Source: Fundidesulfovibrio terrae (lineage in GTDB: Bacteria; Desulfobacterota; Desulfovibrionia; Desulfovibrionales; Desulfovibrionaceae). From it: a stretch of DNA of 64,000 bases. The position numbers and the translations under genes were made by a program. Each line of letters starts with the position of its first letter. The first letter of the stretch is position 1. Below, piece after piece: positions 19,570 to 39,220 of this stretch. The notes below the pieces were generated by a model. It saw nothing but the letters and a program-made list of their open reading frames with translations, did no database searches and had not been told where the DNA came from. The stretch is from positions 248,001 to 312,000 of the forward strand of contig NZ_JAKZFS010000004.1 of assembly GCF_022808915.1 (NCBI RefSeq). The letters run 5' to 3'.

Positions 19570-21030
19570 TCAGCCGGCCATCAGGCTGCCGGCCTGGGCG
19601 GCCTCGCGCGCGTCCTCGCGGGAGGCCGCGATGCTCACCCGATTGCGTCCGGCGAGCTTGGCCGCATAGAGGGCCTGGTCGGCCTGGGCCACCAGGCTGG
19701 CCGGAGTGGCGGCTTGGCCCGGCGCGAATCCGGTCATGCCGATGGAGATGGTGAGCGGGATCATCCGCCCGGCGTAGCGCAGCGTGATCGAGCTCACGCG
19801 GCGGCGCAGCCTCTCGGCCAGCATCCATGCCTGGGACTGCCCCGTGTGCGGCAGGATGACGGCGAATTCCTCGCCGCCGTAGCGGGCCAGGAAATCCGAG
19901 GAGCGAAGGCCGCTTTCCAGGGCATGGGCCGCGTGCTTGAGCGCGGCGTCACCGGCAAGGTGGCCGTGGGTGTCGTTGACGGCCTTGAAGTGGTCCAGGT
20001 CGGCCATGAGAAGGACGAAGCCCTCCTTGTGGCGTATGTGGCGCTTGAGTTCCTGGTCCAGGCGGGCGTCAAAGCTCCGGCGGTTGTACAGGCCGGTCAG
20101 CCCGTCGCGGTCGGCCCTCCGCTTGAGCAGCAGGTAGTCCAGGGAGTGCTTGACGCACGGGGCCAGCTGGTTGAGCGCCTCACGGGCGGTCTCCTGCTCG
20201 TGCTTGGCCAGGTCGCGGTGGATGAGCACGCTCAAGCACCCGAAGGGCTTGTCCTCGACGCGCAAGGGCACCAGCAGCGCCCGTCCCGGTTCGGCCGGGG
20301 CGGATTCGTCCCCGCCGGGCACCGGGTGCGTCCGGTAGGAACTGGGCGGCGCGCCGCGCAGGCGCGAGGCCAGGTCCAGCAGGTAGTCGGTCCGCGCGGC
20401 CTTGGCCTGGACCGACAGCCCATCGGGCAGGAATATCTCGCTCTCGGCGGACAGTCCCCAGAACACTCCGAGCACTTCCGACACCGGGAAAGCCAGCCCC
20501 AGGTCCTCGCGGAGGCAGGCCAGGATCTGCGCCAGGTCCAGGGTGGACATGGCCCTGGCCAGCATATGCTGGAAAAAGGCCAGGCGTCCGTTCTCCTGCG
20601 CCATGTGGTCGCGTTCGCGCTGGGCCTCGCCCAACAGCTTGGCGATGTCCTCGAAGACTCCGGCGGTGTCGCGCGCGGCCTTGATGGCGGCGACTATGCG
20701 GGCCTTGGCCAGGGGCGGAGCCAGGCAGGCCAGGAAGCCTCCGGCCAGGACCTCGTCGTGGCCGGGCAGGTCGCCGTCCGAGGCCACCAGCACTTTGCGC
20801 GCGGTCTTGAACCAGGCGGGCGGCGCGGCCTGGAGGCTCCTCCAGGCGGGGACGTCCAGGAACACCACCAGGGGGTCGGCACGGTCGTAATCCGTCTGGG
20901 AGGGGGTGTCGCGCACGTCGAAGCGCCTGACGTCCAGGTCCTCGCCGGCGGCCAGGCGAATGCGCTTGGCGGGCTGCCCGGCCAGGCCCAGGAGCCAGAT
21001 GGGAGAGGAACTCTTGGCGGACTTGCGCAT
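19570..21030 (-). CDS. GGDEF diguanylate cyclase with GAF-like input
   Basis: A 486-residue soluble protein. The ATG at 21030 is preferred over the one at 21057 because GGAG lies 8 bases upstream. The N-terminal half has a receiver-like segment without a clear phospho-acceptor site (DPLVVFLDVPAWRSL...VLVASDGDL), then a GAF-like region (about 160-310: LVPLRVEDKPFGCLSVLIH). The C-terminal GGDEF domain begins RDGLTGLYNRRSFD, keeps the active site RYGGEEFAV (about 385-389) and the inhibitory RxxD site RSSD five residues upstream. It should make c-di-GMP with product inhibition. It is divergent from the GAK operon. Confidence 0.93.
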   Translation of the reverse strand: MRKSAKSSSPIWLLGLAGQPAKRIRLAAGEDLDVRRFDVRDTPSQTDYDRADPLVVFLDVPAWRSLQAAPPAWFKTARKVLVASDGDLPGHDEVLAGGFLACLAPPLAKARIVAAIKAARDTAGVFEDIAKLLGEAQRERDHMAQENGRLAFFQHMLARAMSTLDLAQILACLREDLGLAFPVSEVLGVFWGLSAESEIFLPDGLSVQAKAARTDYLLDLASRLRGAPPSSYRTHPVPGGDESAPAEPGRALLVPLRVEDKPFGCLSVLIHRDLAKHEQETAREALNQLAPCVKHSLDYLLLKRRADRDGLTGLYNRRSFDARLDQELKRHIRHKEGFVLLMADLDHFKAVNDTHGHLAGDAALKHAAHALESGLRSSDFLARYGGEEFAVILPHTGQSQAWMLAERLRRRVSSITLRYAGRMIPLTISIGMTGFAPGQAATPASLVAQADQALYAAKLAGRNRVSIAASREDAREAAQAGSLMAG

Positions 21031-21160
21031 GCGTGGTCTCCGGATGGTGGTGCTCATCGCCGCGTTTCAAGCAAGTTTGATGCCGGGAATTTTTTGCCCC
21101 CGGACCGGACCACGGCCGCCGCCGGTAACAGGATCGCCATGTCGGCGGGGTAGGAACACT

Positions 21161-21221: not shown

Positions 21222-21791
21222 ATGAGCATGAGCAACAAACACAAAGCGGAAGTTACGCTTGAAAAGAGCGATCTGGCCGGATGGCTGCGCGGCCTCGCCG
21301 AGGCCGTGGAGGCGGGGGAAATCGCCACCGAGGCCGGACCCGTGAGCCTGGAAGGCTACAGGGCCGTGAAGATATCCTTCAAGGAGACCTTCGAGGGCAA
21401 GGTGCGGGCCAAGCTCAGCGTGAAGTTTCCCCGGCCTGCCCTGGTGCTGGCGGGCGAGCCGGGCGAAGCCGCTGAGGACGAGGAGTCCGAAGAAGGCGGA
21501 GCGCTTCCGAAATACAAGTCACTGAAAAAGCACATGAAGCAGACCTTCAAGGCCATCGGGGCGGCCTTGCTGGCGGGCCAGATGCCCCCGCTCCTGGAGG
21601 CCCAGAGCTTCATAGCTGACTCCAGGCTCATGGTCAGCTATCCCGGCAAGGGCGACGAGTTCTACGCCGCGTTTCTCGAGAAGACGGTCGCCTTCGAGGC
21701 CGCCCTTGTCGCTTCCGACCTGGAGGCCGCCAAGTCCGCATATCTCGATCTGGCTCAGCTCAAGCGGGACTGCCACTCCCGCTACGTGTAG
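21222..21791 (+). CDS. GAK system XXXCH-domain protein with amphi-Trp-like N-terminus
   Basis: A 189-residue cytoplasmic protein. The ATG at 21222 has GGGAGG upstream; a second Met lies two codons on. Residues about 8-75 (LAGWLRGLAEAVEAGEI ... KVRAKLSVKFPRP) follow the same pattern as the amphi-Trp protein two genes downstream. An acidic linker (EDEESEEGG) leads to a helical C-terminal domain ending LKRDCHSRYV, in which Cys184-His185 is the hallmark XXXCH pair. The CH pair resembles the end of a heme-c site but lacks the first Cys, so heme attachment should not be assumed. This is the first gene of the seven-gene GAK operon. Confidence 0.85.
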   Translation: MSMSNKHKAEVTLEKSDLAGWLRGLAEAVEAGEIATEAGPVSLEGYRAVKISFKETFEGKVRAKLSVKFPRPALVLAGEPGEAAEDEESEEGGALPKYKSLKKHMKQTFKAIGAALLAGQMPPLLEAQSFIADSRLMVSYPGKGDEFYAAFLEKTVAFEAALVASDLEAAKSAYLDLAQLKRDCHSRYV

Positions 21792-21800
21792 GCGCGCGCC

Positions 21801-23000
21801 ATGTCCGGCTCGAAAATGGAACTGGTGAAGACCCCCGGGGCGCCCGCCTCTTCCCCGTCTTCGAAGGTCTGCTCGGAGATAGACCTCTCCGCCATCCCCC
21901 GCGAAGTCACCGAGTGGGACCTGGAGACATTCCTGGAGATGACCTGCCCCGGCGTCACCCCGGAGCAGGCCCGGATAGTCCGCAACCCGTCCGTGCGGTA
22001 CCCCCGCCAGGAATACGTCCTGGCCGTGCACTGGCACCCGGAGCAAGTGCCCATGGACGTCATCCGGGACCGCATCGCGGCCATGTTCCCGGGCAGCCGC
22101 GACGAGCTCATCATCCCCACCCAGCACAATCAGCTGCTCACCTGGGGCGAGTACGCCGGGGTGGAGGTGGACTGCTATTCCCACGGCTTCAACCGCAAGG
22201 TGCAGCTCCTGGTGCACATGCGCGCCGATCGCCTGGACCGGGCCGGGGTGCTGGCAAACATGCTCAAGCACACGTTCAAGTACCGCTCCTCGCAGCTCTT
22301 CGAGTATCTGGACGCCCTGTGCGACCCCGAATGGGAGGAGCGCCGCCAGCAGGCTGCGGGCAGGGCCGGGTCCGACGAGGATGTGGTGGAGTTCACCGCC
22401 ATCCACGCCAGGCGTCTGAAGGGCCTGCTCATCCAGAACGAGATGCGCACCCCCCAGGACGCCATCAAGAACAAGCTGGTGCGCAACTACCTGGACTGCT
22501 TGCGCGAATTCTACGACGCCCGGTTCATCAACAAGGCCCAGGTCTACGCCAAGGCGGTCAAGGAAGTGGTCAAGGACAACTTCTCCCTGGCGTACTTCTA
22601 CCGGGCCTCGGAGGTGGTGGAGGAGTGCCGGGCCATGGGGGCCGGAGTGGTCATCCCCCACCCGGAGCAGTTCTGGCCCATCCTTCTTCGCAACTACGAC
22701 GTGGACGGCATCGAGGTGTGGAACCCGCAGTCGCAGCAGTACACGGAGTTCCTCATCAACGTGGTGCTGGACCAGAACCGGCGCGGCTACCACAAGGACA
22801 GGCCCATGCTCATCTTCATGGGCGACGACTGCCACCTCTCCGAGAAGCTCAAGAAGCCCGAGGAGCAGGACAGCGACAAGGCCGCCCGCGAGGTGGGCCT
22901 GCAGCCCGCCTGGGACGACCTGGGCATCTCCAAAGCGCTCATCATGGCGGGGGTGAGCCGCAAGACGGTCATGGACGAATACCGCACCCGCCTGGGTTAG
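21801..23000 (+). CDS. PHP-like putative metal-dependent hydrolase in the GAK operon
   Basis: A 399-residue protein that I do not recognise as a named family. Several clusters look like metal ligands in the order seen in PHP or amidohydrolase-like barrels: HWHPE (His77, His79), PTQHNQ (His109), VEVDCYSHGF (Glu122, Asp124), later VVIPHPEQFWPI, GIEVWNPQSQQYTEF, and IFMGDDCHL near the C-terminus. The spacing is suggestive but no motif is decisive. It starts 9 bases after the XXXCH gene with a poor ribosome site, so it may depend on coupling. Its place inside the operon suggests hydrolysis of a GAK intermediate or product. Confidence 0.6.
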   Translation: MSGSKMELVKTPGAPASSPSSKVCSEIDLSAIPREVTEWDLETFLEMTCPGVTPEQARIVRNPSVRYPRQEYVLAVHWHPEQVPMDVIRDRIAAMFPGSRDELIIPTQHNQLLTWGEYAGVEVDCYSHGFNRKVQLLVHMRADRLDRAGVLANMLKHTFKYRSSQLFEYLDALCDPEWEERRQQAAGRAGSDEDVVEFTAIHARRLKGLLIQNEMRTPQDAIKNKLVRNYLDCLREFYDARFINKAQVYAKAVKEVVKDNFSLAYFYRASEVVEECRAMGAGVVIPHPEQFWPILLRNYDVDGIEVWNPQSQQYTEFLINVVLDQNRRGYHKDRPMLIFMGDDCHLSEKLKKPEEQDSDKAAREVGLQPAWDDLGISKALIMAGVSRKTVMDEYRTRLG

Positions 23001-23013
23001 GAGTACGCACGCG

Positions 23014-23325
23014 ATGGATACTACGGACAACAAAGACCAGCCCGCACGCGAGGGCAAGTTCTTCTACGAATCGGTGCAGGACGCCAAAACCCTGGTGGAA
23101 TACCTGCGGGCCCTGACCGACGGCTTCGAAAAGGGCGAGATGCGCTTTTCGCGCAAGGACCTGGACATGACGCTCTCGCCCAAGGGGCTCATCGGCTTCG
23201 CGGTGGAGGCCAAGGCCAAGGAGGGGCGCATGAAGCTGGCCCTCAAGTTCGCCTGGCGCGAGGCCGTGGCCGATCCTGAGCGGGATACCGACAATCTGGT
23301 CATCACCTCGGGGGGCGGAGAGTAG
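23014..23325 (+). CDS. amphi-Trp domain-containing protein, GAK system
   Basis: A 103-residue protein essentially made of one amphi-Trp domain: KFFYESVQDAKTLVEYLRAL, then DGFEKGEMRF and GRMKLALKFAWREA. The domain name refers to an amphipathic segment ending in Trp. It is a compact cytoplasmic module found as a companion of GAK genes, with unknown biochemical activity. The gene lies 13 bases after the PHP-like gene and 3 bases before the PhoU-kinase fusion. Its similarity to the N-terminal part of the XXXCH protein suggests the two arose by duplication and may dimerise or present the same ligand. Confidence 0.85.
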   Translation: MDTTDNKDQPAREGKFFYESVQDAKTLVEYLRALTDGFEKGEMRFSRKDLDMTLSPKGLIGFAVEAKAKEGRMKLALKFAWREAVADPERDTDNLVITSGGGE

Positions 23326-23328
23326 CGG

Positions 23329-24975
23329 ATGCGTTTTCTGGAAGGCATCGAAGAGAATTTCCGCTTCATGGTCCTGGAAGTGACCAAGCAGGTCGAGAAC
23401 ACCCTCAAGGTGCTCGAGAACCCCGATCCGGCCCTGGTGGTCAAGATAGAGAGCCGGGACGACTACATCGACAACCTGAAGAGCGTCATCGAGAACAAGT
23501 GCTTCTCCCGCATCCACACCGGATTCGGCAGCGACAAGCGGGCCATCGACATGGCCCGGGCGGTGAACATCATCACCTCCAACCTGGAGCGTCTGGCCGA
23601 CCACGCGGTGAACATCGTCATGCAGTCGCAGTACCTGCGCGACCCGAACTTCATCAAACGCTACGACTACAAGGCCTTCTTCACCGAGATCATCAAGGCC
23701 CTGCGCTTGGTGGTGAAGGCCCTCTACAACCAGGACATCACCCTGGCCTTCCGCATCTGCCGCGCCGAAGTGACCCTGGACGCCCTGTTCAAGACCAACT
23801 TCGACATCATCCTGGCCGACCTGCGCAAGGGCGAATCCCCCGAGAACTGCATCACCGCCCACAACATCTTCCGCTACCTGGAGCGCATGGGCGACACCAT
23901 CCTGAACATCGGCGAGGCCATCATCTTCGCGGCCGTGGGCGAGAAGTTCAAGATCCACCAGTACGAAGCCCTCAAGGAGACCCTCTCGGAACTGGGCGAG
24001 GAAGTGCCCATCTCCGACGGCGAGTTCCACTCCATCTGGGGCACGCGCTCGGGCTGCCGCATCGGCATGGTGGCCGGAGAGCGCAAGGGCAGGCGTTCAA
24101 GCGGCGTGCTCTTCAAGGAGGGCAACCCCGAGAAGCTGCGCCGCGAGGTGGAGAACATCCGCCGCTGGGAATCCATCATGCCGGGCCTGCCGCCCAAGGT
24201 GCAGGCCTTCCACGAGGACGTCGAGTCGGCCTCCATGCTCATGGAGTACCTGGGCGGCTGCACCTACCAGGAGGTGGTGCTCACCGGCGCGCCCGAGGTG
24301 GCCGCCAACGCCACCTTCATCCTGGAGCAGACCGCGCGCCAGCTCTGGACCCAGACCCGCAAGGACACGCCCGTGCAGGCGGGCTACGTCAGCCAGTTGC
24401 GCCAGCGCCTGGACGACGTCTACCGCATGTACCCGTCGTTCCGCACCAAGGCCATGACCCTCATGGGCCTGGACATCCCGGCCTTCGAGGACCTGGTGGA
24501 TGCCACGGCGGATCTGGAGACCCGGTTCCAGGCCCCTTTCACCGTGTTCATCCACGGCGACTTCAACATCAACAACATCGTCTACAACCACGAAGAACAA
24601 CGAATCCACTACATCGACCTGCACCGCGCCAAGAACAGCGATTTCGTTCAGGACGTGTCGGTGTTTCTCATCTCCAATTTCCGCCTCCCCGTGCTGGACA
24701 GCCTGCTGCGCACCCGCCTGGACCGGGTCATCAACGAATTCCTGGCCTTCTCCCGGGAGTTCGCCGCCGAGTCCGGGGACGAGACCTTCGAGGTGCGCCT
24801 GGCGCTGGGGCTTGTGCGCTCGTTCGTCACCTCCAGCCGCTTCGAGTTCAACCACCGCTTCGCCCACGAGATGTACCAGCGCGGCGTGTACATCATGCGC
24901 AAGCTCGACGCATTCAGGCAGGGCGGGCGGCCCTGGCGGGAGTTCATCCTGCCCGCGGACGTCCTCATTTACTGA
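23329..24975 (+). CDS. PhoU-like domain fused to an aminoglycoside-phosphotransferase-fold kinase
   Basis: A 548-residue two-domain protein. Residues about 1-215 are a PhoU-like helical bundle: MRFLEGIEENFRFMVLEVTK and NLERLADHAVNIV, with the second repeat YLERMGDTILNIGEAIIF. Residues about 240-548 are an APH/choline-kinase-type domain with the Brenner motif FIHGDFNINN (His409, Asp411, Asn416) and the metal-binding Asp430 in IHYIDLHRA. The kinase therefore looks active toward a small molecule. PhoU domains bind phosphate-transport or metal clusters, so phosphate status may gate the kinase. It is 16 bases upstream of the ATP-grasp gene. Confidence 0.87.
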   Translation: MRFLEGIEENFRFMVLEVTKQVENTLKVLENPDPALVVKIESRDDYIDNLKSVIENKCFSRIHTGFGSDKRAIDMARAVNIITSNLERLADHAVNIVMQSQYLRDPNFIKRYDYKAFFTEIIKALRLVVKALYNQDITLAFRICRAEVTLDALFKTNFDIILADLRKGESPENCITAHNIFRYLERMGDTILNIGEAIIFAAVGEKFKIHQYEALKETLSELGEEVPISDGEFHSIWGTRSGCRIGMVAGERKGRRSSGVLFKEGNPEKLRREVENIRRWESIMPGLPPKVQAFHEDVESASMLMEYLGGCTYQEVVLTGAPEVAANATFILEQTARQLWTQTRKDTPVQAGYVSQLRQRLDDVYRMYPSFRTKAMTLMGLDIPAFEDLVDATADLETRFQAPFTVFIHGDFNINNIVYNHEEQRIHYIDLHRAKNSDFVQDVSVFLISNFRLPVLDSLLRTRLDRVINEFLAFSREFAAESGDETFEVRLALGLVRSFVTSSRFEFNHRFAHEMYQRGVYIMRKLDAFRQGGRPWREFILPADVLIY

Positions 24976-24991
24976 TTTTCCGGGAGCGCAC

Positions 24992-25864
24992 ATGAAAAAG
25001 ATAGGTGTCGTCGGCCTGACGGACGGATGGTCCTCCGAGATATTGGCCGACGCGTGCAGAAAGCTGACGGGGTTTCGGCTGCTCATCGACATGGACCGCG
25101 CCGTGCTGGACCTGGACCGGGGCACGGTGTTCTACGGCGGGCAGGATCTCTCCGAACTGGACGCCCTCATCGTCAAGAAGATCGCCCCGCAGTACTCCCC
25201 GGACGTGCTCGACCGGCTGGAGATGCTGCGCTTTTTGGAACTGAAGGGGCTGCCCATATTCTCCAAGCCGTCTTCGATCCTCAAGCTCATCGACCGGTTG
25301 AGCTGCACCGTGGCCCTGCGCGCGGGCGGCCTGCCCATGCCCGCCACGGTGATCACGGAGGACGTGGACGAGGCCCTCGCGGCCGTCGGACGCTTCGGCC
25401 GGGCCGTGTTCAAGCCCCTGTACTCCACCAAGGCCCGGGGCATGGAAGTGATCGCCGCCGGGCCCGAGGCGCGCTTACGCATCGAAGCCTTCCAGAACGG
25501 CGGCAACAAGGTGATCTACCTGCAGAAGATGCTGCCGCCCCTGGAGAGAGACCTGGGCGTCACCTTCATGGGCGGGCAGTACCTGGCCACCTACGCGCGC
25601 AAGTCAGGCGGTACCAGCTGGAACACCACCACCAGCGCGGGCGGTAAGTACGAGCCCTACGAGCCCTCGCAAGAGATCGTCGAGCTGGCCCGCAAGGCCC
25701 AATCGCTCTTCGACATGGCCTTCACCTGTGTGGACGTGGCCGAAACCGCCCAGGGGCCCATCGTGTTCGAGGTTTCGGCGTTCGGGGGCTTCCGGGGCCT
25801 TCTGGACGCCTGCGGCATCGACGCCGCGGAGGCCTACGCCCGGTATGTCCTGGAGAGGATTTGA
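24992..25864 (+). CDS. ATP-grasp family ligase, GAK system
   Basis: A 290-residue ATP-grasp enzyme. The ATG at 24992 follows CGGGAG. N-terminal domain: KKIGVVGLTDGWSSEILADA; central ATP-binding region: LKLIDRLSCTVALRAGGLPMPATV, then RAVFKPLYSTKARGMEVI, with the expected lysine in FKP; C-terminal metal-binding region: VDVAETAQGPIVFEVSAFGG. It resembles RimK/MptN-type ligases that add an amino acid to a carboxylate, forming an amide bond with ATP. The real acceptor is unknown. Its stop overlaps the kinase start (TGATG). It is the G (grasp) component of the GAK system. Confidence 0.88.
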   Translation: MKKIGVVGLTDGWSSEILADACRKLTGFRLLIDMDRAVLDLDRGTVFYGGQDLSELDALIVKKIAPQYSPDVLDRLEMLRFLELKGLPIFSKPSSILKLIDRLSCTVALRAGGLPMPATVITEDVDEALAAVGRFGRAVFKPLYSTKARGMEVIAAGPEARLRIEAFQNGGNKVIYLQKMLPPLERDLGVTFMGGQYLATYARKSGGTSWNTTTSAGGKYEPYEPSQEIVELARKAQSLFDMAFTCVDVAETAQGPIVFEVSAFGGFRGLLDACGIDAAEAYARYVLERI

Positions 25865-26946
25865 TGAGCCAGCCCACGGTTCCCACGGTCAGGGGGCTCG
25901 TCGCGCCCTTCCTCGAACGCTTTGACTGCCCCCACCTGCTCAGGCTGGATTTCGGCGGGTTCGGGGTGGACGTGCGCGTAAACGACGAGCGCCTGGCGGC
26001 CTGGCTGGCGGACTACTTCCGCGATTTCCACCGCGCCCCGGGACCGGCCCACTGCGAGGTCCTGGCCGTGGAGTGCGATCCGCAGACCCTGCCCGTGACG
26101 TACTCGGTCAAGGAGCCCGAACCGGGCAAGACCAAGATCAAGGAGGAATGGGCGGACCTGGTCGACGGGCGCGTGGTGCGCAAGCGCCTGACCGGGATGC
26201 TCTTTCTTTTCGGCCAGGGCTGCAACCTGGCCCTGGGGCCTTGCCTGGACAACCCCAACCAGGTGGTCAACTTCATCAACAACCGCTTCATCGAGCATAA
26301 GCTCAACCAGGGATGCCTGCTGGGGCATGCCGCCGCAGTGGCCTGGGACGGCGAGGGGCTGGCCCTGGCAGGGTTCTCGGGCATGGGCAAGTCCACCCTG
26401 GCCCTGCACATGATGAACCTAGGGCTTGATTTCGTCTCCAACGACCGGGTGATGCTGGGCCGGGACAGCGGCGGGCTGACCATGTACGGCGTGGCCAAGA
26501 TGCCCCGGGTGAACCCCGGCACCGTGCTTCACAACACAAGCCTCGCGGGCGTCATGCCGGATGCGGACCGGGCCGCCTTCAAGGACTTGCCAATCGAGGA
26601 GCTGTGGAGCCTGGAGCACAAGTACGACGCCTTCATCGACGAGTGTTTCGGGCCGGGACGTTTCCAGCTTGAGGCGCGCATGAAGGGGCTGGCCATCCTC
26701 AACTGGAAGCGCGGCGGCGGCGAATTGAAAGTCGCACGCGTGGACATCGCCCAGCGCCGTGACCTTTTGCCCGCGTTCATGAAGAGCACCGGGCTTTTCT
26801 ACGACACCGGCGCGGACATGCCCATCCCGGATTTCTCGGAGGACGCCTACGTGGAGGCGCTTGGGGGGTGCACGGTGCTGGAAGTGACCGGCGGGGCCGA
26901 TTTCGAGACGGCCGCGCGCGAGCTGACGAAATTTCTGAAGGGATGA
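25864..26946 (+). CDS. HprK-related kinase B, GAK system
   Basis: A 360-residue P-loop protein related to HPr kinase/phosphorylase. The ATG at 25864 overlaps the ATP-grasp stop. The Walker A is GFSGMGKST (170-178), followed by LHMMNLGLDFVSNDRVML, equivalent to the HprK region that places a catalytic Asp, here SNDR. There is no HPr or PTS gene nearby, so the substrate is probably a small molecule or another GAK protein instead of HPr. An N-terminal domain of about 140 residues (VRGLVAPFLERFDCPHLLRL) precedes the kinase core. Confidence 0.88.
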   Translation: MSQPTVPTVRGLVAPFLERFDCPHLLRLDFGGFGVDVRVNDERLAAWLADYFRDFHRAPGPAHCEVLAVECDPQTLPVTYSVKEPEPGKTKIKEEWADLVDGRVVRKRLTGMLFLFGQGCNLALGPCLDNPNQVVNFINNRFIEHKLNQGCLLGHAAAVAWDGEGLALAGFSGMGKSTLALHMMNLGLDFVSNDRVMLGRDSGGLTMYGVAKMPRVNPGTVLHNTSLAGVMPDADRAAFKDLPIEELWSLEHKYDAFIDECFGPGRFQLEARMKGLAILNWKRGGGELKVARVDIAQRRDLLPAFMKSTGLFYDTGADMPIPDFSEDAYVEALGGCTVLEVTGGADFETAARELTKFLKG

Positions 26947-26950
26947 CCAT

Positions 26951-28144
26951 ATGCCCACAGTCACCATCTCGCACACGGTCACGCTTCCCGATCCGGTGAA
27001 GATCGCGCGCTACCTGAAGGCCCCGGAGCTCGGACCGCGCGTGCTGTTCTTCAGCGGCGGCTCGGCCCTGCGCGACCTCTCGCGGGAGCTTGTGCGCTAC
27101 ACCCACAATTCGGTGCACCTGATCACGCCCTTCGACTCGGGCGGGTCCTCGGCCAAGCTGCGCGCCACCTTCAACATGCTGGCCGTGGGCGACCTGCGAA
27201 ACCGGCTCATGGCCCTGGCCGACCGGACGCTGCATGGCAACCCGCAGATATACGACCTGTTCGCCCACCGGCTGCCCAAGGATTTGCCCCAGGACGACCT
27301 CAAGGCGCGCCTCGACGCCCTGGTGGACGGCAGCGATCCCCTGGTGGGCGCGGTGCCCGACCCCATGCGCAAGATCATCCGCAGCCATCTCAAATTTTTC
27401 CGCAAGGCCATGGAGGGCACGAATTTCAACCTGCGCGGCGCGAGCATCGGCAACCTGATCCTGGCGGGAGGCTTCTTCAACTACAATCGCCAGATCGACC
27501 CGGTGATCTACATGTTCACCATGCTGGTGAAGGCGCGGGGCACGGTGCGCCCCATCATCAACAAGGACCTGACCCTGGTGTCGGAGATGGCCGACGGGAC
27601 GCTCCTGGCCGGGCAGCACCTGCTCACGGGCAAGGAGACCGGTCCCATCACCCAGCCGGTGAAGCGGGTGTACCTGAGCAAGAGCCAGAAGGACCTGCGC
27701 CCGGTGGAGGTGAACGTGCGCCGCAAGGTGAAGGAGCTGATCCGCTCGGCGGAGCTCGTCTGCTACCCCATGGGTAGCTTCTACTCGAGCCTTCTGGCCA
27801 ACCTGCTGCCCAAGGGCGTGGGGGACGCGGTGTCCAAGGCCCAGTGCCCCAAGGTGTTCGTGCCCAATCCGGCGGGCGATCCCGAGCAGTTCGGCCTGGG
27901 CCTGGGCGACAGCGTGCGCCGGCTGCTCGAGGCCCTGCGGGCAAGCTGCGTGAAGCCCAGGCCCACGCAGTCGCTTCTCAACTTCGTGCTGCTGGACAAG
28001 GGGCGCGGCTACCAGGCGCCTCTGGCGCTCAACCAGATCGAGGCCATGGGCATCAAGGTCATCGAGGCGGATCTGGCGAGCACGGCCAACGCGCCCTATT
28101 TCGACGAGCGCGCGGTCATTGAGCTCCTCCTGTCCGTGGCTTGA
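26951..28144 (+). CDS. CofD-related protein, GAK system
   Basis: A 397-residue member of the CofD/YvcK (UPF0052) superfamily. It has the nucleotide/glycine motif RVLFFSGGSALRDLSREL (about 35-50) and the superfamily signature LITPFDSGGSSAKLR (about 57-71), then GASIGNLILAGGFF. CofD itself transfers a lactyl-phosphate group to the deazaflavin FO in F420 synthesis. YvcK relatives bind UDP-sugars. No other F420 genes are in the window, so this is better seen as transferase or sensor of an uncharacterised GAK metabolite. It is the last gene of the operon. Its final 29 bases overlap the convergent AT-rich gene. Confidence 0.88.
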   Translation: MPTVTISHTVTLPDPVKIARYLKAPELGPRVLFFSGGSALRDLSRELVRYTHNSVHLITPFDSGGSSAKLRATFNMLAVGDLRNRLMALADRTLHGNPQIYDLFAHRLPKDLPQDDLKARLDALVDGSDPLVGAVPDPMRKIIRSHLKFFRKAMEGTNFNLRGASIGNLILAGGFFNYNRQIDPVIYMFTMLVKARGTVRPIINKDLTLVSEMADGTLLAGQHLLTGKETGPITQPVKRVYLSKSQKDLRPVEVNVRRKVKELIRSAELVCYPMGSFYSSLLANLLPKGVGDAVSKAQCPKVFVPNPAGDPEQFGLGLGDSVRRLLEALRASCVKPRPTQSLLNFVLLDKGRGYQAPLALNQIEAMGIKVIEADLASTANAPYFDERAVIELLLSVA

Positions 28145-29266: not shown

Positions 29267-31600
29267 TCAGCCCGTGCAGGCAGTGAGCCCTACGGGGCCG
29301 CGCCGGTCACGCACCCAGACGTTGCCGGGCCTACTCTTGGCGTACTTCTTCATCTCCGCCGAGCGCTGGGAGATGGACTCCAGGGTGCATGCCCCGTGGC
29401 AGTCCACGATGGCCAGCGACATGGACACGATCGGGAACTTGCCTTCCTTGCCGCTTCTGTCCTTGCCCGTGATGTATCCGGCCGTCCGGTCGGCTTCGTT
29501 GTAGCAGTCGCCCACCAGCCGGGCGAAGCAGCGCGTGACGGCCTTGCAGATGCGCTCGGCCTTGTCCGGGGTGGTGCAGATCACGAAGTCGTCGCCGCCC
29601 ACATGGCCCAGGAAGTCCGTGGGCGCGCCGTGGCGGCGCATTGCCCAGGCCAGGATGCGCGCGGCCAGCAGGATGATTTCGTCGCCAGCCTTGAACCCGT
29701 ACGAATCGTTGTAGACCTTGAAGTTGTCCAGGTCCGCGTAAAGGAAGCTGACCGGGGTCCCGGCCGCCACGCGGCCTTCCAGTTCGCGCTCGATGGCCAC
29801 GTTGCCGGGCAGGCCCGAGAGGGGGTTGGCGCCCTTGGCCATCTCCATCTGCACCTGGGCCAGGGCGTCCAGGATCATCTGCACCGAGGCCAGGCCCGCC
29901 AGCAGGCCGTCTCGCGTGACCAGCACGTGGTCGTACACCTTGTAGCCGTCGCGGTTCATGGCCGCCTGGGCCGCGATCTCCACGGGGGTGTTCCAGTCCA
30001 CCACCAGGGGCTGGCTGTCCATGATCTTGGTGACGGGCCGGTTGGTGTACAGGGCCAGGCCGTACTGGGAGGAGAGCACCCGGTCCATCTGGTGGCGGGT
30101 GACCAGGCCCACGGGCCTGCGGCTCGAGACCACGGCCACGGAGCTGACCCGGGGGTGGGCGTCGAAATAACGCTTGAGGTCCCCCACATGGGATGAGGTC
30201 TGCACCTGGACGGCCTCGTCGGCGTGGATGCCGATGGGCGAGGAGCACTTGAGCTCGGCCGTGGAGCGGCGCTTGCGCCCGGCCAAAAAGAGCGACGCCT
30301 CGGCCGAGATGTCCGGCTTGGGGGCGGCCGGGCGGGCCAGGTAGTAGCCCTGGCCGTAGTGCACGCCCATGGACACCAGGGAGGACAGTTCCGTGGCTGT
30401 CTCGATGCCCTCGGCGATGATCTTGCACCCCACCTTGTCCGAAAAGGTGAGGAAAGTCTCGATGAGGGCGCGCTTCACCGGGTTGGCGTCGATGCCCTGG
30501 ATGAGCGACATGTCCAGCTTGATGAAGTCCGGGCGGATCTCGGCGATGGACCACAGGCCGGAATAGCCGGTGCCCACGTCGTCCACCGCCACCTTGAACC
30601 CTTCGCCCCGGTAGTGGTCCAGGGTGCGGTGGAAGAGGGAAAAATCTTTGGTGGAGTGGCGCTCGGTGATCTCCAGGACGATGTCGTGGGGCTCGAGCCC
30701 CAGGGTTTCGAGCAGCTTGAGGGTTTCGCCGGGGCTGAAGGACGGGTCTACCAGGGTGCGCGGGTGGACATTCAAAAAGAGTTTGCGCCCGGGCGGCAGG
30801 GCCCCGAACCCGGTGACGGCGGCGGTGCGGCAGGCGCGCTCCAGGGGGAACACCAGGTCGTGCTCCTCGGCGAAGCCGAAGAGCATGGCCGGGTTCTCGA
30901 AGGTGCTGCCCCGGGGGCCTCGGGCCAGGGCTTCCCAGGCGAAGATGTCGCCCGCGCGCAGGTCCAGGATGGGCTGGTAGACCGCGCGCACCTGGGGGGC
31001 GTCGATAAGGCCCCGGAACTCCTTGAGGAGCACCGCCCCGGCGGGGTCCAGGCTGCCCCGGATCATGCGGTGGGCGTCGGCCAGGGCGGAGTGCACGGCC
31101 TGTTCGAGCTTCCTGCGCGAGATGCCGGTGATCTGGGCCGCGCCCACGGCGATCTCCATGTCCTGGCCGGTGAGGTTGAGGGCCTCGCGCTTGAGCCTGG
31201 CGCGCAGGCTCAGGCGCATGATGGAGCCTGTGTGCAGAAGCGGTCCCATCTCGGCCTTGTACGCCCCCACGGCCAGCAGGAACTTGTCGTTCTCGAGCTT
31301 GTCCAGGACCATGAAGGGCAGGCTGTCCACGCGCTCGCGGGCCAGGGCTTCCAGTTCCTTTTCGGCGCACTGGCTCAGGGCGTCGGCAATGGCGCTGCCG
31401 TAAATCCGGCTGAAGATGTAGAAATCCTGGATTTCAAAGAGGAGCAGTCCGACGACTCCGTCTTTTTTGAGCAGGTTCTCCATGGCCTCGCGGTGGGGCG
31501 AGGCCAGAAGCGAGAGAGGGCGGCGGCTGTCGGGGACGGTTCCCCGCCGGTTCGCCGGCCTGGCCAGATGGGGGCTTAGGTCGATCACGCCTTCGAGCAT
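29267..31600 (-). CDS. EAL-CBS-GGDEF c-di-GMP signalling protein
   Basis: A 777-residue soluble protein with, in order, a degenerate N-terminal GGDEF-like domain (about 40-185, active site not conserved), an EAL phosphodiesterase domain (about 200-440), a CBS-like pair (about 460-590: ITKIMDSQPLVVDWNTPVEI) and a C-terminal GGDEF domain with HVGGDDFVI (about 667-671). EAL residues look complete: WEALARGP, LFLNVHP, EITERHS, VAVDDVGTGYS, IKLDMSL, AEGIET. It may therefore both make and break c-di-GMP, with the CBS pair sensing adenine nucleotides. The ribosome site for the ATG at 31600 is weak; an ATG at 31483 is an alternative. Confidence 0.9.
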   Translation of the reverse strand: MLEGVIDLSPHLARPANRRGTVPDSRRPLSLLASPHREAMENLLKKDGVVGLLLFEIQDFYIFSRIYGSAIADALSQCAEKELEALARERVDSLPFMVLDKLENDKFLLAVGAYKAEMGPLLHTGSIMRLSLRARLKREALNLTGQDMEIAVGAAQITGISRRKLEQAVHSALADAHRMIRGSLDPAGAVLLKEFRGLIDAPQVRAVYQPILDLRAGDIFAWEALARGPRGSTFENPAMLFGFAEEHDLVFPLERACRTAAVTGFGALPPGRKLFLNVHPRTLVDPSFSPGETLKLLETLGLEPHDIVLEITERHSTKDFSLFHRTLDHYRGEGFKVAVDDVGTGYSGLWSIAEIRPDFIKLDMSLIQGIDANPVKRALIETFLTFSDKVGCKIIAEGIETATELSSLVSMGVHYGQGYYLARPAAPKPDISAEASLFLAGRKRRSTAELKCSSPIGIHADEAVQVQTSSHVGDLKRYFDAHPRVSSVAVVSSRRPVGLVTRHQMDRVLSSQYGLALYTNRPVTKIMDSQPLVVDWNTPVEIAAQAAMNRDGYKVYDHVLVTRDGLLAGLASVQMILDALAQVQMEMAKGANPLSGLPGNVAIERELEGRVAAGTPVSFLYADLDNFKVYNDSYGFKAGDEIILLAARILAWAMRRHGAPTDFLGHVGGDDFVICTTPDKAERICKAVTRCFARLVGDCYNEADRTAGYITGKDRSGKEGKFPIVSMSLAIVDCHGACTLESISQRSAEMKKYAKSRPGNVWVRDRRGPVGLTACTG

Positions 31601-33259: not shown

Positions 33260-35143
33260 CTAGAGCGCTGAAAACCGGCGCAGCCACAGCTCCAGGCAGG
33301 CCAGGGCCCAGAGACGCTTGCCGTGGTCGATCCGCCCCCGCGCGTGCTCGTCCAGCAGGCGGGCGATCTCCTCTCGCCTGAACAGGCGCGCGACGGCCAC
33401 CCCGCCCAGGAGCAGTTCTCGGCTCCAGCCCGAAAGCCCCTCGCGCATCCACTTGCCCACGGGGATGCCGAAGCCCTGCTTGCCCTGGGCCGTGACCTCG
33501 GGGGGCAAGAGATCCGCGAAGGCCTTGCGCAGCAGGTACTTGCCGGTGCGACCGCGCATTTTGAGGCGAGCCGGGAGGCGGGCGGCCCACTCGGCCAGTT
33601 CGTGGTCCAGGAGTGGCGAACGCCCTTCCAGGCCGTGGGCCATGGCCATGCGGTCGGCCTTCACCAGCAGGTCTCCCGGCAGGTAGGAGCCGAGGTCCGT
33701 GGCCAGGGTGCGGTCCAGGAAGGTGTTGGCGCGGGCGCCGTCGAACAGCCGGGCGAGCAGGTCCAGGGCGTCGACGCTGGGCCGGACCTCGGGCCTCCAG
33801 AGCCTCCCGGCGGCCTCAGGGGTGAAATAGGACCCCCAGCGCACGATGCTGGCCTTGGGGCTGATCGCCGCCACCTGGGCCAGACGCTTGAGCCCGGCCA
33901 CCCAGTCGGATTCGATCGGCCGGTCGCCGGCTTGCGGCCACGCGGCAAGCAGGGCCGGGACGAGGCCCTGGGTGACGAAGCGGGGCAGGGCGGCATAGGG
34001 CGCGACCAGGGGGTCCAGCCAGTAGCGCTGGTAGCCCGCAAACAGTTCGTCCCCGCCGTCGCCGTTCAGGGCCACGGTGACCTTGGTCCTGGTTTCCCGG
34101 GCCAGGAAGTACGAGGGCAGGGCCGAGGGGTCGGCGAAGGGTTCGCCCACGTGGGCGACCACCTGCTCCAGGGTGCTCGGCACGTGGCCGTACTCCACCA
34201 TGAACTCGCTGTGGTCCGTTCCGTAGCGGGCGGCCATGGCGCGGGCCTTGTGGAGTTCCGAAAAGGCCGCCTCCGCAAAGCCGATGGAGAAGGTCTTCAC
34301 CGGCTCGTCCGAGAGCCGGGACATGAGGGCCACCACGATGCTCGAGTCTATGCCGCCGGAGAGGTGCGCGCCCAGGGGCACGTCGGACATGAGCCGGATG
34401 CGAGTGGCCTCGGTGAGGCGCTCGCGCAGCTCCTCGGCCAGCTGGTCCTCGCCTGCGGTGAACTTGGGCTCGAAGGCGAGGCTCCAGTAGCGGGCCGTGT
34501 CCAGGCGGCCGTCCTTCCAGGCGAGGTGGTGGGCCGGGGGGAGCTTTCGCAGGGCCTTGAAGGCGCAGAGCGGGTCAGGCACGTACTGCAGGCTCAAATA
34601 GAGGCCCAGCGCCTCGAGGTCCGGCTCGCGGCTCACGCCCGGGAAGGCCAGAAGCGAGGCCGGTTCCGAGGCGAAGAGCAAATGCCCCTGGTGCAGGCAG
34701 TAGTAGAAGGGCTTCTTGCCCAGGCGGTCGCGCGCGGCGAACAGGGACTGGCCGCGCTCGTCCCAGACGGCGAAGGCGAACATGCCGCGCAGGCGTTCGA
34801 CGCAGGCCGGGCCGTACTCCTCGAAGGCATGCAGGATGGCTTCGGTGTCGCTTGCGGTGGCGAAGCGGTGACCCTTGGCTTCCAGGTCGCGGCGCAGGTC
34901 CAGGTGGTTGTATATCTCGCCGTTGAAGACGATCCACAGGGACCCGTCCTCGTTGCACATGGGCTGGTCCCCGGTGGCCAAGTCGATGATGGCCAGGCGG
35001 CGGTGGGCAAGCCCGGCCCGCCCGCGCGTAAAGAAGCCCTCGCCGTCGGGCCCCCGGTGGGCGATGGCGGAGGCCATGGCAGCGAGGGTTTCGCGCCCGG
35101 GAGTGGCCCCGGCAGGGGCGATGATTCCGGCGATGCCGCACAT
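33260..35143 (-). CDS. asparagine-synthetase-type glutamine amidotransferase (first paralogue)
   Basis: A 627-residue AsnB-like enzyme. It starts MCGIAGIIAPAG, so Cys2 is the N-terminal glutaminase nucleophile after Met removal; HRGPDGEGFF, LAIIDLATGDQPM and FNGEIYNH complete the class II glutaminase domain (to about 210). The synthetase domain has the PP-loop SGGIDSS near 262-268 and NGDGGDELFAGY. It hydrolyses glutamine and uses ATP to amidate a carboxylate. Location among glycosyltransferases, and a second paralogue at 37355, suggest amidation of a sugar acid or peptide in a surface glycan rather than asparagine synthesis. Confidence 0.93.
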   Translation of the reverse strand: MCGIAGIIAPAGATPGRETLAAMASAIAHRGPDGEGFFTRGRAGLAHRRLAIIDLATGDQPMCNEDGSLWIVFNGEIYNHLDLRRDLEAKGHRFATASDTEAILHAFEEYGPACVERLRGMFAFAVWDERGQSLFAARDRLGKKPFYYCLHQGHLLFASEPASLLAFPGVSREPDLEALGLYLSLQYVPDPLCAFKALRKLPPAHHLAWKDGRLDTARYWSLAFEPKFTAGEDQLAEELRERLTEATRIRLMSDVPLGAHLSGGIDSSIVVALMSRLSDEPVKTFSIGFAEAAFSELHKARAMAARYGTDHSEFMVEYGHVPSTLEQVVAHVGEPFADPSALPSYFLARETRTKVTVALNGDGGDELFAGYQRYWLDPLVAPYAALPRFVTQGLVPALLAAWPQAGDRPIESDWVAGLKRLAQVAAISPKASIVRWGSYFTPEAAGRLWRPEVRPSVDALDLLARLFDGARANTFLDRTLATDLGSYLPGDLLVKADRMAMAHGLEGRSPLLDHELAEWAARLPARLKMRGRTGKYLLRKAFADLLPPEVTAQGKQGFGIPVGKWMREGLSGWSRELLLGGVAVARLFRREEIARLLDEHARGRIDHGKRLWALACLELWLRRFSAL

Positions 35144-35320
35144 ACGGGTGTTCCTAGTATAACAAGTAACGTTCTTGAAACGCTGGCCGGGGCGAAAAAG
35201 CGTTTCTAGTTGCGTGCAGGCGAAGAATGCGCACGCCCTGTCGTGGCGCCCGGCCCGGGCCCTCTCCGGCCGATTCCATGACCTGGCGCAGGGAAAATTC
35301 CGGCCAGGGCGGGGCCACGG

Positions 35321-36490
35321 TCATGGGCGGCGGGATCTTGAGGCGAGCCTGGCGCACAGGTCCAGGTAGCGCGCGGCCACGCCGCCCCAGGAGTAGTCGC
35401 GCTCCACCCGGCCTCGTCCGGCGCGGCCCATGCGCGAGCGCATCGTTTGCGCTTCGTCCCCGCCGGTTCCGATAAGCCGGGCCAGGGCCACGCACAGTTC
35501 CCCGGGCGAATCCGGCGCGACCAGCAGGCCTGATTCTTCCGGCACGACCAGCTCTTCGTTTCCGGCGATGCGGGTGGCCACCACGGGCAGCCCCGAGGCC
35601 ATGGCCTCGAGCACGGCGTTGGGCATGCCCTCGTCGCGGGATGCGAACACGAACACGTCCATGTCGCGCAGCACCTCGGCCAGCTGCGGACGGCGCATCC
35701 AGCCCCGGAAGAACACCTTGGCCTCGATGCCGAGCTCCCTGGCCCGGGTCTCGAGTTCAGGGCGCTGGGGGCCATCGCCCGCGATGTGCAGCTCCCAGAG
35801 GGAGGAGTCCTGAAGCCGGCCCAGGGCGTCGAGCACCGTGTCCAGGCCTTTCTGGTAGACCACGCGACCGTGGAAGAAAAGCCGCACGGGGCCGGGCCTG
35901 CGCGCTTCCTCGCGGGGGTGGAAAAGCTCGGTGTCCGCGCCGTTGGGGATCACCGGATAATTGAGGTTCGGCTCGAAGGCTCGGGCCAGGGCCGCAAGCC
36001 CTGCGCTGTTTGGCACCACGGCCCCGGCCTTGCGCCACAGGAACCGGATGGCCGGGCCGGTGAGGGCGTGCATGCGGGCCAGGTCGTAAGGCTGGAAGCC
36101 CGGCACGTCGCCCCCCCGCAGCGACACCACGTAGGGAACGCCGCGAAGGGCCTTGAGGACCCAGGCCGACGGCCCGCTTGGGATGCCGAAAAAGGCCACG
36201 CAGGCGTCGGGCTTGAAGGACCTTGCGTAGAGCGGGACGTAGACGCAGGCGGTGGCCATGAACACGGCCATCTCCCAGCTGGCGCACTTCTCCTCGAAAC
36301 GGCGCACGGTGGGGATGCGCCGGACGGTGAAGCCGTCGACACGTTCGTTGCGGGGAAAATCTCCGAAGGCCGAGGTGACCACCAGCACGTCGTGTCCCTG
36401 CCGGGCCATCTCCCGGGCAATGTGGGCAGTGGCGTTGCCCGCGCCGCCGCCCAGGGGCGGGTACTCGTAGTTGACCAGCAGGATGCGCAT
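35321..36490 (-). CDS. family 4 glycosyltransferase
   Basis: A 389-residue GT-B enzyme. The ATG at 36490 overlaps the methyltransferase stop (ATGA) and gives a proper N-terminus, MRILLVNYEYPPLGGGAGNA, containing the GG loop that contacts the acceptor or membrane. The C-terminal donor domain has RLFFHGRVVYQKGLDTVLDA and the E-x7-E motif in ASRDEGMPNAVLEAMASGLP (retaining mechanism). It probably transfers a hexose to a lipid-linked or polysaccharide acceptor at the cytoplasmic face. It is in the cluster asnB - GT4 - methyltransferase - asnB - GT2. Confidence 0.93.
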   Translation of the reverse strand: MRILLVNYEYPPLGGGAGNATAHIAREMARQGHDVLVVTSAFGDFPRNERVDGFTVRRIPTVRRFEEKCASWEMAVFMATACVYVPLYARSFKPDACVAFFGIPSGPSAWVLKALRGVPYVVSLRGGDVPGFQPYDLARMHALTGPAIRFLWRKAGAVVPNSAGLAALARAFEPNLNYPVIPNGADTELFHPREEARRPGPVRLFFHGRVVYQKGLDTVLDALGRLQDSSLWELHIAGDGPQRPELETRARELGIEAKVFFRGWMRRPQLAEVLRDMDVFVFASRDEGMPNAVLEAMASGLPVVATRIAGNEELVVPEESGLLVAPDSPGELCVALARLIGTGGDEAQTMRSRMGRAGRGRVERDYSWGGVAARYLDLCARLASRSRRP

Positions 36491-37299
36491 CAGGCGGGTT
36501 TCCTGCACACGATGGAGGCGGTGGTGGTGGCCAGGATGTCGCGGTTTCGCGAAGCGAACTCGGGGGCCAGGAAAGGGGCCACGGCGGCCAGACCGTCGGG
36601 GTCGGCGCTGCGCTCCACGACCTCCGCCTCGAAGCCGCAGCAGGACAGGGCGGCCAGATGGTCGTCCAAACGGTGGCGCGGCAGATCGCCCGGGTCCAGG
36701 AAGTTGTCCCAGGCGGCCTGGGAGAACGTCAGGAAGTGAAAGGGATATTTGAAGAAATGGTCGCGATAGTCCACCCGGTGCAGCATGGTCCCGCCCGAGG
36801 CCAGCACCCGGTGGCACTGGCGGAAGCAGGCGATCGGGTCGGCCACGTGCTCCAGCACCGAGTTGGACACGATGAGGTCCGCGCTGCCGGACTCCAGGGC
36901 GTCCAGGTCGCGCACCCGGTCCACCCGTCCCCCCAGGCCCGTTAATCCCCCTGGATGGCGCCGTGAGACGTCCTGGGCAATCCACGCGTCCAGTTCCGCG
37001 TCAAAGGGCGCAAAGGGCTCCACGCCCGTCCAGGAGCCCCCAAAGCGGGCGATCCATTCATGGCCCGTGCCGTTCGCCGCGCCGCAGCCCAGTTCCACCA
37101 CGCGCGTCCCCCGGATGGCGACGCCGGCCTCCCGCGCCAGGCGCTGGTAGGCGGTGACGATGGGTTCGGGGTCCAGGCGTCCCTGGTTCACCCGCCAGTA
37201 GGGAATGAACGCGCCGATGCGGTCCAGCACCGCGCCGCTGAACAGGAAGCGGCGCACCAGGCGCAGGGTGACGTATTCCAGGTTGGACCAGAGGATCAT
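36490..37299 (-). CDS. SAM-dependent methyltransferase
   Basis: A 269-residue class I methyltransferase. The ATG at 37299 has GGAG 7 bases upstream. Motif I is RVVELGCGAANGTGHEW. The post-I acidic residue lies in WTGVEPF, and motif II/III is DLIVSNSVLEHVADPIACF, as in the Methyltransf_11 type that modifies sugars or small molecules. The leader segment ILWSNLEYVTLRLVRRFLF is hydrophobic and may bind the membrane. Overlap with the GT4 gene indicates coupled translation and a common product, perhaps a methyl-capped glycan. Confidence 0.88.
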   Translation of the reverse strand: MILWSNLEYVTLRLVRRFLFSGAVLDRIGAFIPYWRVNQGRLDPEPIVTAYQRLAREAGVAIRGTRVVELGCGAANGTGHEWIARFGGSWTGVEPFAPFDAELDAWIAQDVSRRHPGGLTGLGGRVDRVRDLDALESGSADLIVSNSVLEHVADPIACFRQCHRVLASGGTMLHRVDYRDHFFKYPFHFLTFSQAAWDNFLDPGDLPRHRLDDHLAALSCCGFEAEVVERSADPDGLAAVAPFLAPEFASRNRDILATTTASIVCRKPA

Positions 37300-37354
37300 G
37301 GACGCGCTCCACGAGGACGCATGCCTGGCCGCGCGGCAAGGGCGCGCGGGCGAG

Positions 37355-39214: not shown

Positions 39215-39220
39215 GGGGGG

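Follow-up and report, generated by a model that had tools for sequence, protein, structure and literature searches.

A 64,000-nucleotide stretch of the Fundidesulfovibrio terrae genome (contig NZ_JAKZFS010000004.1, positions 248,001 to 312,000; the whole stretch is called the window here) contains an operon of the GAK system, a set of protein families catalogued in NCBIfam as TIGR04354-TIGR04358 under names that carry no function. The operon comprises seven open reading frames (ORFs) on the plus strand between positions 21222 and 28144 (Table 1). Successive genes are separated by 9, 13, 3 and 16 bases, an overlap and 4 bases, and this spacing agrees with the initial annotation, in which seven same-strand genes had been described. 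The overlap between the ATP-grasp gene and the gene of the HprK-related kinase B (HprKB) is most likely a 1-base stop/start junction, TGATG, at 25862-25866; the TTG at 25861, the listed start of the ORF, is an alternative HprKB start.

Table 1. Genes of the GAK operon in the window
Gene product	Position	Strand	Basis of assignment
Amphi-Trp-like + XXXCH protein, 189 aa	21222-21791	+	TIGR04358 over cut-off
PHP-fold phosphoesterase-like protein, 399 aa	21801-23000	+	Predicted fold comparison and invariant residues
Amphi-Trp domain protein, 103 aa	23014-23325	+	TIGR04354 over cut-off
PhoU-APH fusion, 548 aa: PhoU-type, then APH/EcKL-type kinase domain	23329-24975	+	Pfam
GAK ATP-grasp enzyme, RimK/LysX/MptN-like, 290 aa	24992-25864	+	TIGR04356; alignment to LysX structures
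HprK-related kinase B (HprKB), about 360 aa	25864-26946	+	TIGR04355, Walker A, N194-D195-R196
GAK CofD-like / YvcK-like protein, 397 aa	26951-28144	+	TIGR04357; UPF0052 structures among nearest

Five of the seven proteins exceeded the curated NCBIfam cut-offs (in brackets), namely XXXCH with 91.8 bits (40), amphi-Trp with 67.2 (31), grasp_GAK with 447.7 (300), HprK_rel_B with 517.9 (200) and CofD_rel_GAK with 528.0 (340), which places all five GAK families at a single locus. The fourth protein of the operon was matched in Pfam by PhoU (89.2 bits; cut-off 23.5), APH (29.0; 23.2) and EcKL (35.8; 22). None of the GAK models was matched by the PhoU-APH or the PHP-like protein. The catalogued families named in the initial annotation were therefore present; the profile check that it had proposed gave matches for these five and for PhoU-APH, and left the PHP-like protein unmatched. 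No tool used here assigned the set to a characterised pathway, in keeping with the original suggestion that the set does not belong to a characterised one. The seven-gene operon of the window is thus confirmed as real and complete. Scans for promoters and terminators were uninformative, with 2 promoter sites against 1.0 in shuffled sequences and 4 terminators against 5.2.

The association of these genes was followed through the 297 genomes of the phylum. The grasp_GAK cut-off was exceeded in 20 of them, which are called carriers, and these were compared with 39 non-carriers hand-picked out of the 277 genomes below the cut-off. HprKB was over its cut-off in 19/20 carriers and in 0/39 non-carriers, 6/39 of the latter having weak sub-cut-off matches. 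PhoU-APH was found in 20/20 carriers (one partial) and in 0/39 non-carriers, where only the PhoU part matched, and the PHP-like protein in 17/20 carriers (one PHP-less carrier is 67% complete) and in 0/39 non-carriers. The Fisher p-values, calculated with kinship ignored, were 1e-14 for HprKB, 4e-16 for PhoU-APH, 4e-12 for PHP and 3e-5 for CofD. CofD tracks the GAK system loosely: it was over its cut-off in 15/20 carriers, plus one broken copy, and in 7/39 non-carriers, all of one genus. Since PhoU-APH and the PHP-like protein co-occur with the system as tightly as the named GAK proteins do, both are members of it. The expectations that the GAK genes would co-occur across genomes and that the PhoU-APH kinase belongs to the set were both borne out. 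The names of the GAK families were already known, and the membership of PhoU-APH and of the PHP-like protein is added here. A literature search, with most subscription papers and preprints outside its scope, returned no paper on the GAK system, the amphi-Trp domain or the TIGR accessions; a single paper, about a Salmonella phage, contains the term XXXCH domain once.

Several genomes depart from the common pattern. The two halves of the system lie apart in G251 and G315, one with PHP, PhoU-APH and an HprKB, the other with the grasp, a second HprKB and CofD. On contig C113 of G084 CofD is broken up and the matches to PHP and PhoU-APH are interrupted by stops; perhaps this copy is decaying, or these are sequencing errors. 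G116, whose grasp match is partial and does not reach the cut-off, was searched and kept out of both groups; it has HprKB over the cut-off, no PHP, no full PhoU-APH and no CofD. The ATP-grasp matches of G246 (7e-42) and G290 (2e-44) lie far under the GAK cut-off in genomes where no other GAK protein is over its own, and perhaps represent a sister family. The correlation of distances between gene families (r 0.41-0.85) was obtained without a null model and was set aside as evidence.

The gene arrangement was also found in relatives of the window. In 20 neighbourhoods centred on CofD_GAK, at least six of the seven genes were present in 12/20 and all seven in 7/20, which makes a chance arrangement untenable and agrees with the clustering that the initial annotation had anticipated. 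CofD stood without other GAK genes in the remaining 8/20, two of which are on contigs of 6-7 kb. A scan of genome contigs with the grasp profile gave at least 485 stretches with a relative, not all of them necessarily GAK, and the best 80 were analysed. Desulfobacterota, with sulfate reducers among them, are represented, as are records with the labels Phycisphaerae, Nitrospirae, Zixibacteria, GN15, FCPU426, Atribacteria, Spirochaetia, Polyangia/Myxococcales, Roseibium/Labrenzia, Onishia and Marinobacter. Many of the GAK-bearing records are metagenome-assembled and some are named strains. In the 41 of the best 80 with at least 20 kb of sequence (long loci), the grasp, which was the query itself, was accompanied by HprKB in 38, PhoU-APH in 38, amphi-Trp in 37, PHP in 27, CofD in 24 and XXXCH in 15. 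Compact GAK cassettes were also found on three Rhodobacterales plasmids, among five GAK plasmid hits of which these three were examined. According to the record annotation, their gene order is phosphotransferase (PhoU-APH), grasp, HprKB, histidine phosphatase, metallophosphoesterase and amphi-Trp; a divergent CofD gene is added in two of them, and a NUDIX gene in one. A PhoU domain was detected by Pfam in the one plasmid phosphotransferase that was scanned.

The PHP-like protein found no match in NCBIfam (E ≤ 1e-3), Pfam (E ≤ 0.1) or PADLOC (E ≤ 1e-3), and its sequence profile retrieved no PHP protein among solved structures. The original assignment of the second gene as PHP-like was nevertheless upheld by comparison of predicted folds. 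The structure model, built on 59 alignment rows, has a mean predicted local distance difference test (pLDDT) score of 91.5, and Foldseek against the PDB gave three matches below 1e-3, all PHP phosphoesterases: BAD_1165 (3e0f; two entries) with an E-value of 7.3e-5 and Vibrio cholerae RNase AM (YciV) with 1.8e-4, at a probability of 1.00. Eight residues (H77, H79, H109, E122, H139, H287, D343 and H345) are invariant in 59/59 rows and can be read as the HxH, H, E, H and DxH metal sites of the same type as in these enzymes. The protein differs from BAD_1165 and RNase AM in its 14% identity and low TM-scores, in having no Pfam or NCBIfam PHP match, and in its length of 399 residues, a long run of which (about 149-259) is helical. 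RNase AM, a 5'-3' exoribonuclease, is described as containing a PHP domain and holding three metals; it works on RNA ends that carry a 5' phosphate, and its active site overlays that of the AMP-bound relative CV1693 (PMC9410882). Judged by its best matches, the window protein would have a PHP fold nearest to nucleotide-type PHP phosphoesterases, and phosphoesterase activity with a preference for nucleotides is predicted from the model.

Other phosphohydrolases occupy GAK operons that lack PHP. Seven PHP-less operons contain a histidine phosphatase together with a calcineurin-like metallophosphoesterase; six are alpha- or gammaproteobacterial (the Roseibium/Labrenzia group, Onishia and Marinobacter) and one is deltaproteobacterial (L072). 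PHP was searched for genome-wide in these seven metallophosphoesterase carriers and was found in 0/7. Among the 41 long loci, PHP was present in 27, the metallophosphoesterase in seven, both in none and neither in seven (p=1.5e-4, kinship ignored). PHP occurs elsewhere in the genomes of three loci with neither hydrolase (L039, L040 and L071). In the 20 phylum carriers the metallophosphoesterase was limited to a single 56-residue match at 7e-4, in G084. Histidine phosphatase was present at 7/92 GAK loci, and a SixA-NUDIX gene was near 6/92; in L095 the latter separates PhoU-APH from grasp, in an operon with PHP. The closest relatives of the NUDIX half from L107 are Ap4A hydrolases (9.5e-7) and diphosphoinositol phosphohydrolases (1.8e-4). 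Histidine phosphatase, metallophosphoesterase and SixA-NUDIX were all absent at 1e-10 from 60 control regions, which were taken from relatives of the window and are a poor match for the alpha- and gammaproteobacterial loci.

The PhoU-APH fusion is a constant partner of the grasp in the phylum and would provide the link to phosphate. Its PhoU domain, over the Pfam cut-off, has conserved GD..E residues (R186, G188, D189 and E196, each at least 97% conserved in 89 rows), and in the kinase domain H409, D411, N416 and D430 are conserved to the same degree in the same rows. The PhoU domain with its conserved residues is the main evidence for a phosphate link and is suggestive of one. In addition, a PhoU gene is directly upstream on the same strand in 4/92 loci (L023, L030, L042 and L079), and in L081 the operon is preceded by PstA, PstB, PhoU and a PhoB-like regulator that is below the PhoB cut-off. 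A Poisson estimate for the upstream PhoU genes was set aside, since it takes one PhoU per 3500 genes and independence of the loci for granted, both of which are doubtful. The CofD-only loci had PstA, PstB, PstS or PhoU genes in 0/8.

The GAK grasp shares its family and domain layout with the LysX, ArgX, RimK and MptN ligases. Its nearest solved structures are LysX/RimK and its nearest family is MptN (141.5 bits; cut-off 350), with a Pfam RimK score of 38.1 (21) and a weak CofF match of 21.9 (300). D248 and E260 are kept. The asparagine of EVN and the arginine of RGG, both present in LysX, are missing: Ser262 and Ser/Ala216, respectively, take their places in 12/12 aligned enzymes, and S262 is at least 97% conserved in 93 rows. 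The amide step is therefore doubtful, and with it the amide-linked product that had been proposed at the outset.

HprKB resembles HPr kinase/phosphorylase in keeping His156, Walker A (G171-T179) and the second Asp and the Arg of the DDR motif. It differs in scoring only 25 bits with the HprK model (cut-off 240) and in having Asn194 for the first Asp in 19/19 rows (N194-D195-R196). HprK catalysis requires this first aspartate. Both aspartates of HprK are described as highly conserved (PMC11204831).

CofD_GAK scored 122.9 bits with Pfam CofD (30). The YvcK family ranks second, with 108.1 bits, under its cut-off of 196; YvcK/GlmR proteins are the closest characterised relatives by profile, and the nearest solved structures are of the UPF0052 type. 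GlmR is described as having a role in the control of cell-wall precursors (PMC6171935). The initial annotation had placed a CofD-type transferase at the core of the pathway, a role that does not suit a protein missing above the cut-off from 5/20 carriers, present in only 24/41 long loci and in 7/39 non-carriers, and YvcK-like rather than F420 transferase-like. In L070 (3874-6213) a 779-residue HprKB-CofD fusion is encoded on a single metagenome-assembled contig with no ambiguous residues, which suggests that HprKB and CofD act together. A second candidate fusion, in L096, was rejected; parts of both proteins are missing, and it is probably a deletion or an assembly artefact. CofD_GAK alone was seen in L026 (9556-10722; G012, a genome of 1.5 Mb) and L027 (7757-8800; G017), in both adjoining a gene whose sequence was read as valyl-tRNA synthetase-like, so that CofD_GAK probably also has a role outside GAK.

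The N-terminus of the XXXCH protein contains an amphi-Trp-like domain that the initial annotation had overlooked; it scores 20.5 bits where the cut-off is 31. Its model (pLDDT 88.2, predicted TM-score 0.56) consists of a separate beta-alpha-beta domain and a C-terminal four-helix domain. The best Foldseek match is cytochrome c' (E 4.8e-3, probability 1.00; none below 1e-3), and the profile matches cytochrome c' with an E-value of 0.0016 at positions 151-191, so that the predicted C-terminal domain is nearest to the cytochrome c'-like four-helix fold. Unlike cytochrome c', the window protein has only Cys184-His185 and no CXXCH haem attachment motif. The CH pair stands near the C-terminus in 36/37 XXXCH ORFs, so there must be a reason for its conservation; the first Cys is absent from the aligned rows inspected. 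Without the first haem cysteine, the protein is unlikely to bind haem in the usual way. In the amphi-Trp protein, W81 alone is at least 97% conserved in 127 rows and P56 and W81 alone are invariant in 54 rows, while S20 is found in 47/54 and S/T26 in 48/54. The protein of L020, from a genome of the same genus, has no S20, and that of L017 has neither S20 nor S/T26.

Beyond the operon, a GT4 glycosyltransferase protein with an N-terminal PHP-like part recurred at 10/92 GAK loci of several phyla (L111, L091, L092, L066, L106, L049, L045, L054, L021 and L019) and at 0/60 controls (p=0.006). The PHP label of its N-terminal part is a reading of motifs, Pfam finding the glycosyltransferase only. The window had no match to this N-terminal part; the whole query matched it twice, more weakly, and these matches were read as glycosyltransferase-type. 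The operon of the window is flanked by a GGDEF gene (19570-21057, minus strand) on one side and an EAL-GGDEF gene (29267-31600, minus strand) on the other. EAL-type ORFs, identified by sequence cluster only, also lie near GAK in L020, L035, L059 and L065. Farther along, at 33260-40183, the minus strand carries what is perhaps a polysaccharide cluster, made up of a methyltransferase-like ORF, two asparagine-synthase-like ORFs and others that are glycosyltransferase-like.

Taken together, the GAK operon is tentatively, and at less than an even chance, explained as a phosphate-linked cycle in which a small molecule, phosphorylated and probably nucleotide-like, is made and unmade. Computation gave the gene set with its co-occurrence, the families and predicted folds, the conserved catalytic-type residues of the kinase, PHP-like and HprK-like proteins, and, in seven carriers, the absence of PHP along with the presence of other operon phosphohydrolases; from these we infer the functional steps. 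Entry into the cycle would be through the PhoU-APH kinase, with the PhoU half as a reporter of the status of phosphate or metal-phosphate. The product of PhoU-APH would be activated further by the ATP-grasp, by way of an acyl-phosphate or a phosphoryl step, and HprKB may add a phosphate or regulate one, possibly that of the CofD/YvcK-like protein. Removal of the signal would be the work of the PHP phosphoesterase, a task that elsewhere may fall to the histidine phosphatase and metallophosphoesterase, with or without NUDIX. The amphi-Trp and XXXCH proteins could be small binding or scaffold subunits, and CofD an accessory regulator. The phosphorylated-metabolite pathway of the initial annotation survives as the best reading; its core CofD is unsupported and its amide step doubtful. 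Its idea that phosphate status gates the pathway through PhoU rests on the PhoU domain and the four upstream PhoU genes.

A number of observations weigh against this cycle. PstA, PstB, PstS or PhoU genes were present at 10/92 GAK loci and 2/60 controls, an enrichment that is not significant (Fisher p=0.13). The TM-scores of the PHP fold matches are low (0.32-0.38 by query, 0.42-0.51 by target). The split between PHP and metallophosphoesterase was counted without correction for phylogeny, and six of the seven metallophosphoesterase loci are alpha- or gammaproteobacterial. The PHP-less phylum carriers G080 (67% complete), G333 and G231 had no metallophosphoesterase match, and these genomes with neither hydrolase do not bear out a universal swap; the whole-genome checks thus both strengthen the hydrolase swap (0/7) and limit it (three carriers with neither). 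The genome of L056 also has no PHP, among the four of the seven neither-loci that were searched (L043, L048 and L059 fell outside). The likeness of the metallophosphoesterase to ApaH is weak (E 0.047), and the SixA-NUDIX protein looks non-canonical in its NUDIX box, with no RHG in the SixA half in L095 and L099. Finally, a protein substrate is possible, because S20 and S/T26 of amphi-Trp are fairly conserved.

That last point belongs to a protein-modification relay, in which amphi-Trp, XXXCH or CofD would be the substrates, HprKB would phosphorylate one of them, the grasp would ligate a residue or use the protein as a carrier, and the phosphatases would reset it. HprK acts on HPr, RimK on S6 and LysX on LysW, all small protein substrates, and with these relatives and an amphi-Trp protein in 37/41 long loci the relay comes close to the favoured cycle. 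The HprKB-CofD fusion in L070 and the duplication of HprKB in G251 and G315, with one copy per half of the split system, fit it too. We nevertheless consider it the less likely of the two: outside P56 and W81 the amphi-Trp rows hold no strictly invariant position that could serve as acceptor, S20 is lost in L020 and both candidate residues in L017, and APH-type kinases mostly have small-molecule substrates. Assembly of an F420-like cofactor, the idea of the initial annotation, would join a CofD-like transferase and an ATP-grasp in making a phosphodiester, amide-linked product. The Pfam CofD and RimK scores and the relationship of the grasp to MptN, and weakly to CofF, speak for it. It was rejected, being quite improbable, since CofD does not track the GAK system: it is not a constant partner by the counts given for carriers, non-carriers and long loci, it stands alone at 8/20 neighbourhoods (two on short contigs), and it is closest to YvcK/UPF0052-type proteins. 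No cofactor gene was seen among those recurrent neighbour clusters that were identified, the clusters being annotated in part.

The enzyme classes at GAK loci also match a eukaryotic phosphate-linked cycle. In fission yeast, the Asp1 kinase is described as opposed by histidine acid, cysteinyl and Nudix pyrophosphatases in phosphate homeostasis (PMC11323792), and the kinase of PPIP5K and of yeast Vip1 is reported to have an ATP-grasp fold (PMC11836120). A bacterial version of signalling through inositol pyrophosphates or polyphosphate, with an ATP-grasp kinase against histidine, NUDIX and cysteine phosphatases, would account for the histidine phosphatase and SixA-NUDIX genes and for an LMW-PTP-like gene at 6/92 loci. 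The enrichments of the LMW-PTP-like gene (1/60 controls, p=0.25) and of NUDIX (0/60, p=0.08) are not significant, and the GAK grasp shares E260 with LysX, its nearest relatives being LysX/RimK/MptN. Full-length inositol-1-phosphate synthase (Ino1) was found in 1/20 carriers and 11/39 non-carriers (p=0.04), or in 3/20 and 13/39 when partial matches over the Pfam cut-off are counted. PPK2 was found in 0/20 carriers and 3/39 others, and PPK1 in 0/20 and 31/277 (p=0.24), an absence that is uninformative because just 31/277 others have it. The inositol and polyphosphate versions are disfavoured on these counts, and we regard them as very unlikely. GAK has HprK, APH and CofD in addition to the classes of the yeast cycle, and the comparison is an analogy only; with a full-length inositol synthase missing from 19/20 carriers and PPK1 and PPK2 from all 20, a resemblance, if there is one, would reflect convergence on a different compound. 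Anti-phage defence or a selfish mobile cassette might explain the patchy spread (20/297 genomes of the phylum) and the plasmid-borne copies. None of the seven proteins was matched in PADLOC, and no recognised defence genes were found in the annotated plasmid flanks (most other flanks are unannotated), which leaves this explanation hardly credible.

The new observations reported here are the nucleotide-type match of the PHP-like protein, the difference in hydrolases between carriers, the cytochrome c'-like domain of XXXCH and the HprKB-CofD fusion. In a bolder form of the favoured cycle, which we hold to be improbable, GAK would be a widespread bacterial second-messenger system for phosphate status: a new phosphoanhydride or acyl-phosphate nucleotide signal would be made by PhoU-APH, grasp and HprKB, erased by interchangeable PHP, metallophosphoesterase, histidine phosphatase and NUDIX enzymes, and read by the amphi-Trp, XXXCH and CofD-like proteins. 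If true, this would be a convergent bacterial counterpart of phosphate control by inositol pyrophosphates. With the PhoU-kinase as a constant partner and the hydrolase varying between carriers, the hypothesis of a molecule that is made and unmade is directly testable, and, if it is correct, the GAK operon would represent a new bacterial phosphate signalling or cofactor route.

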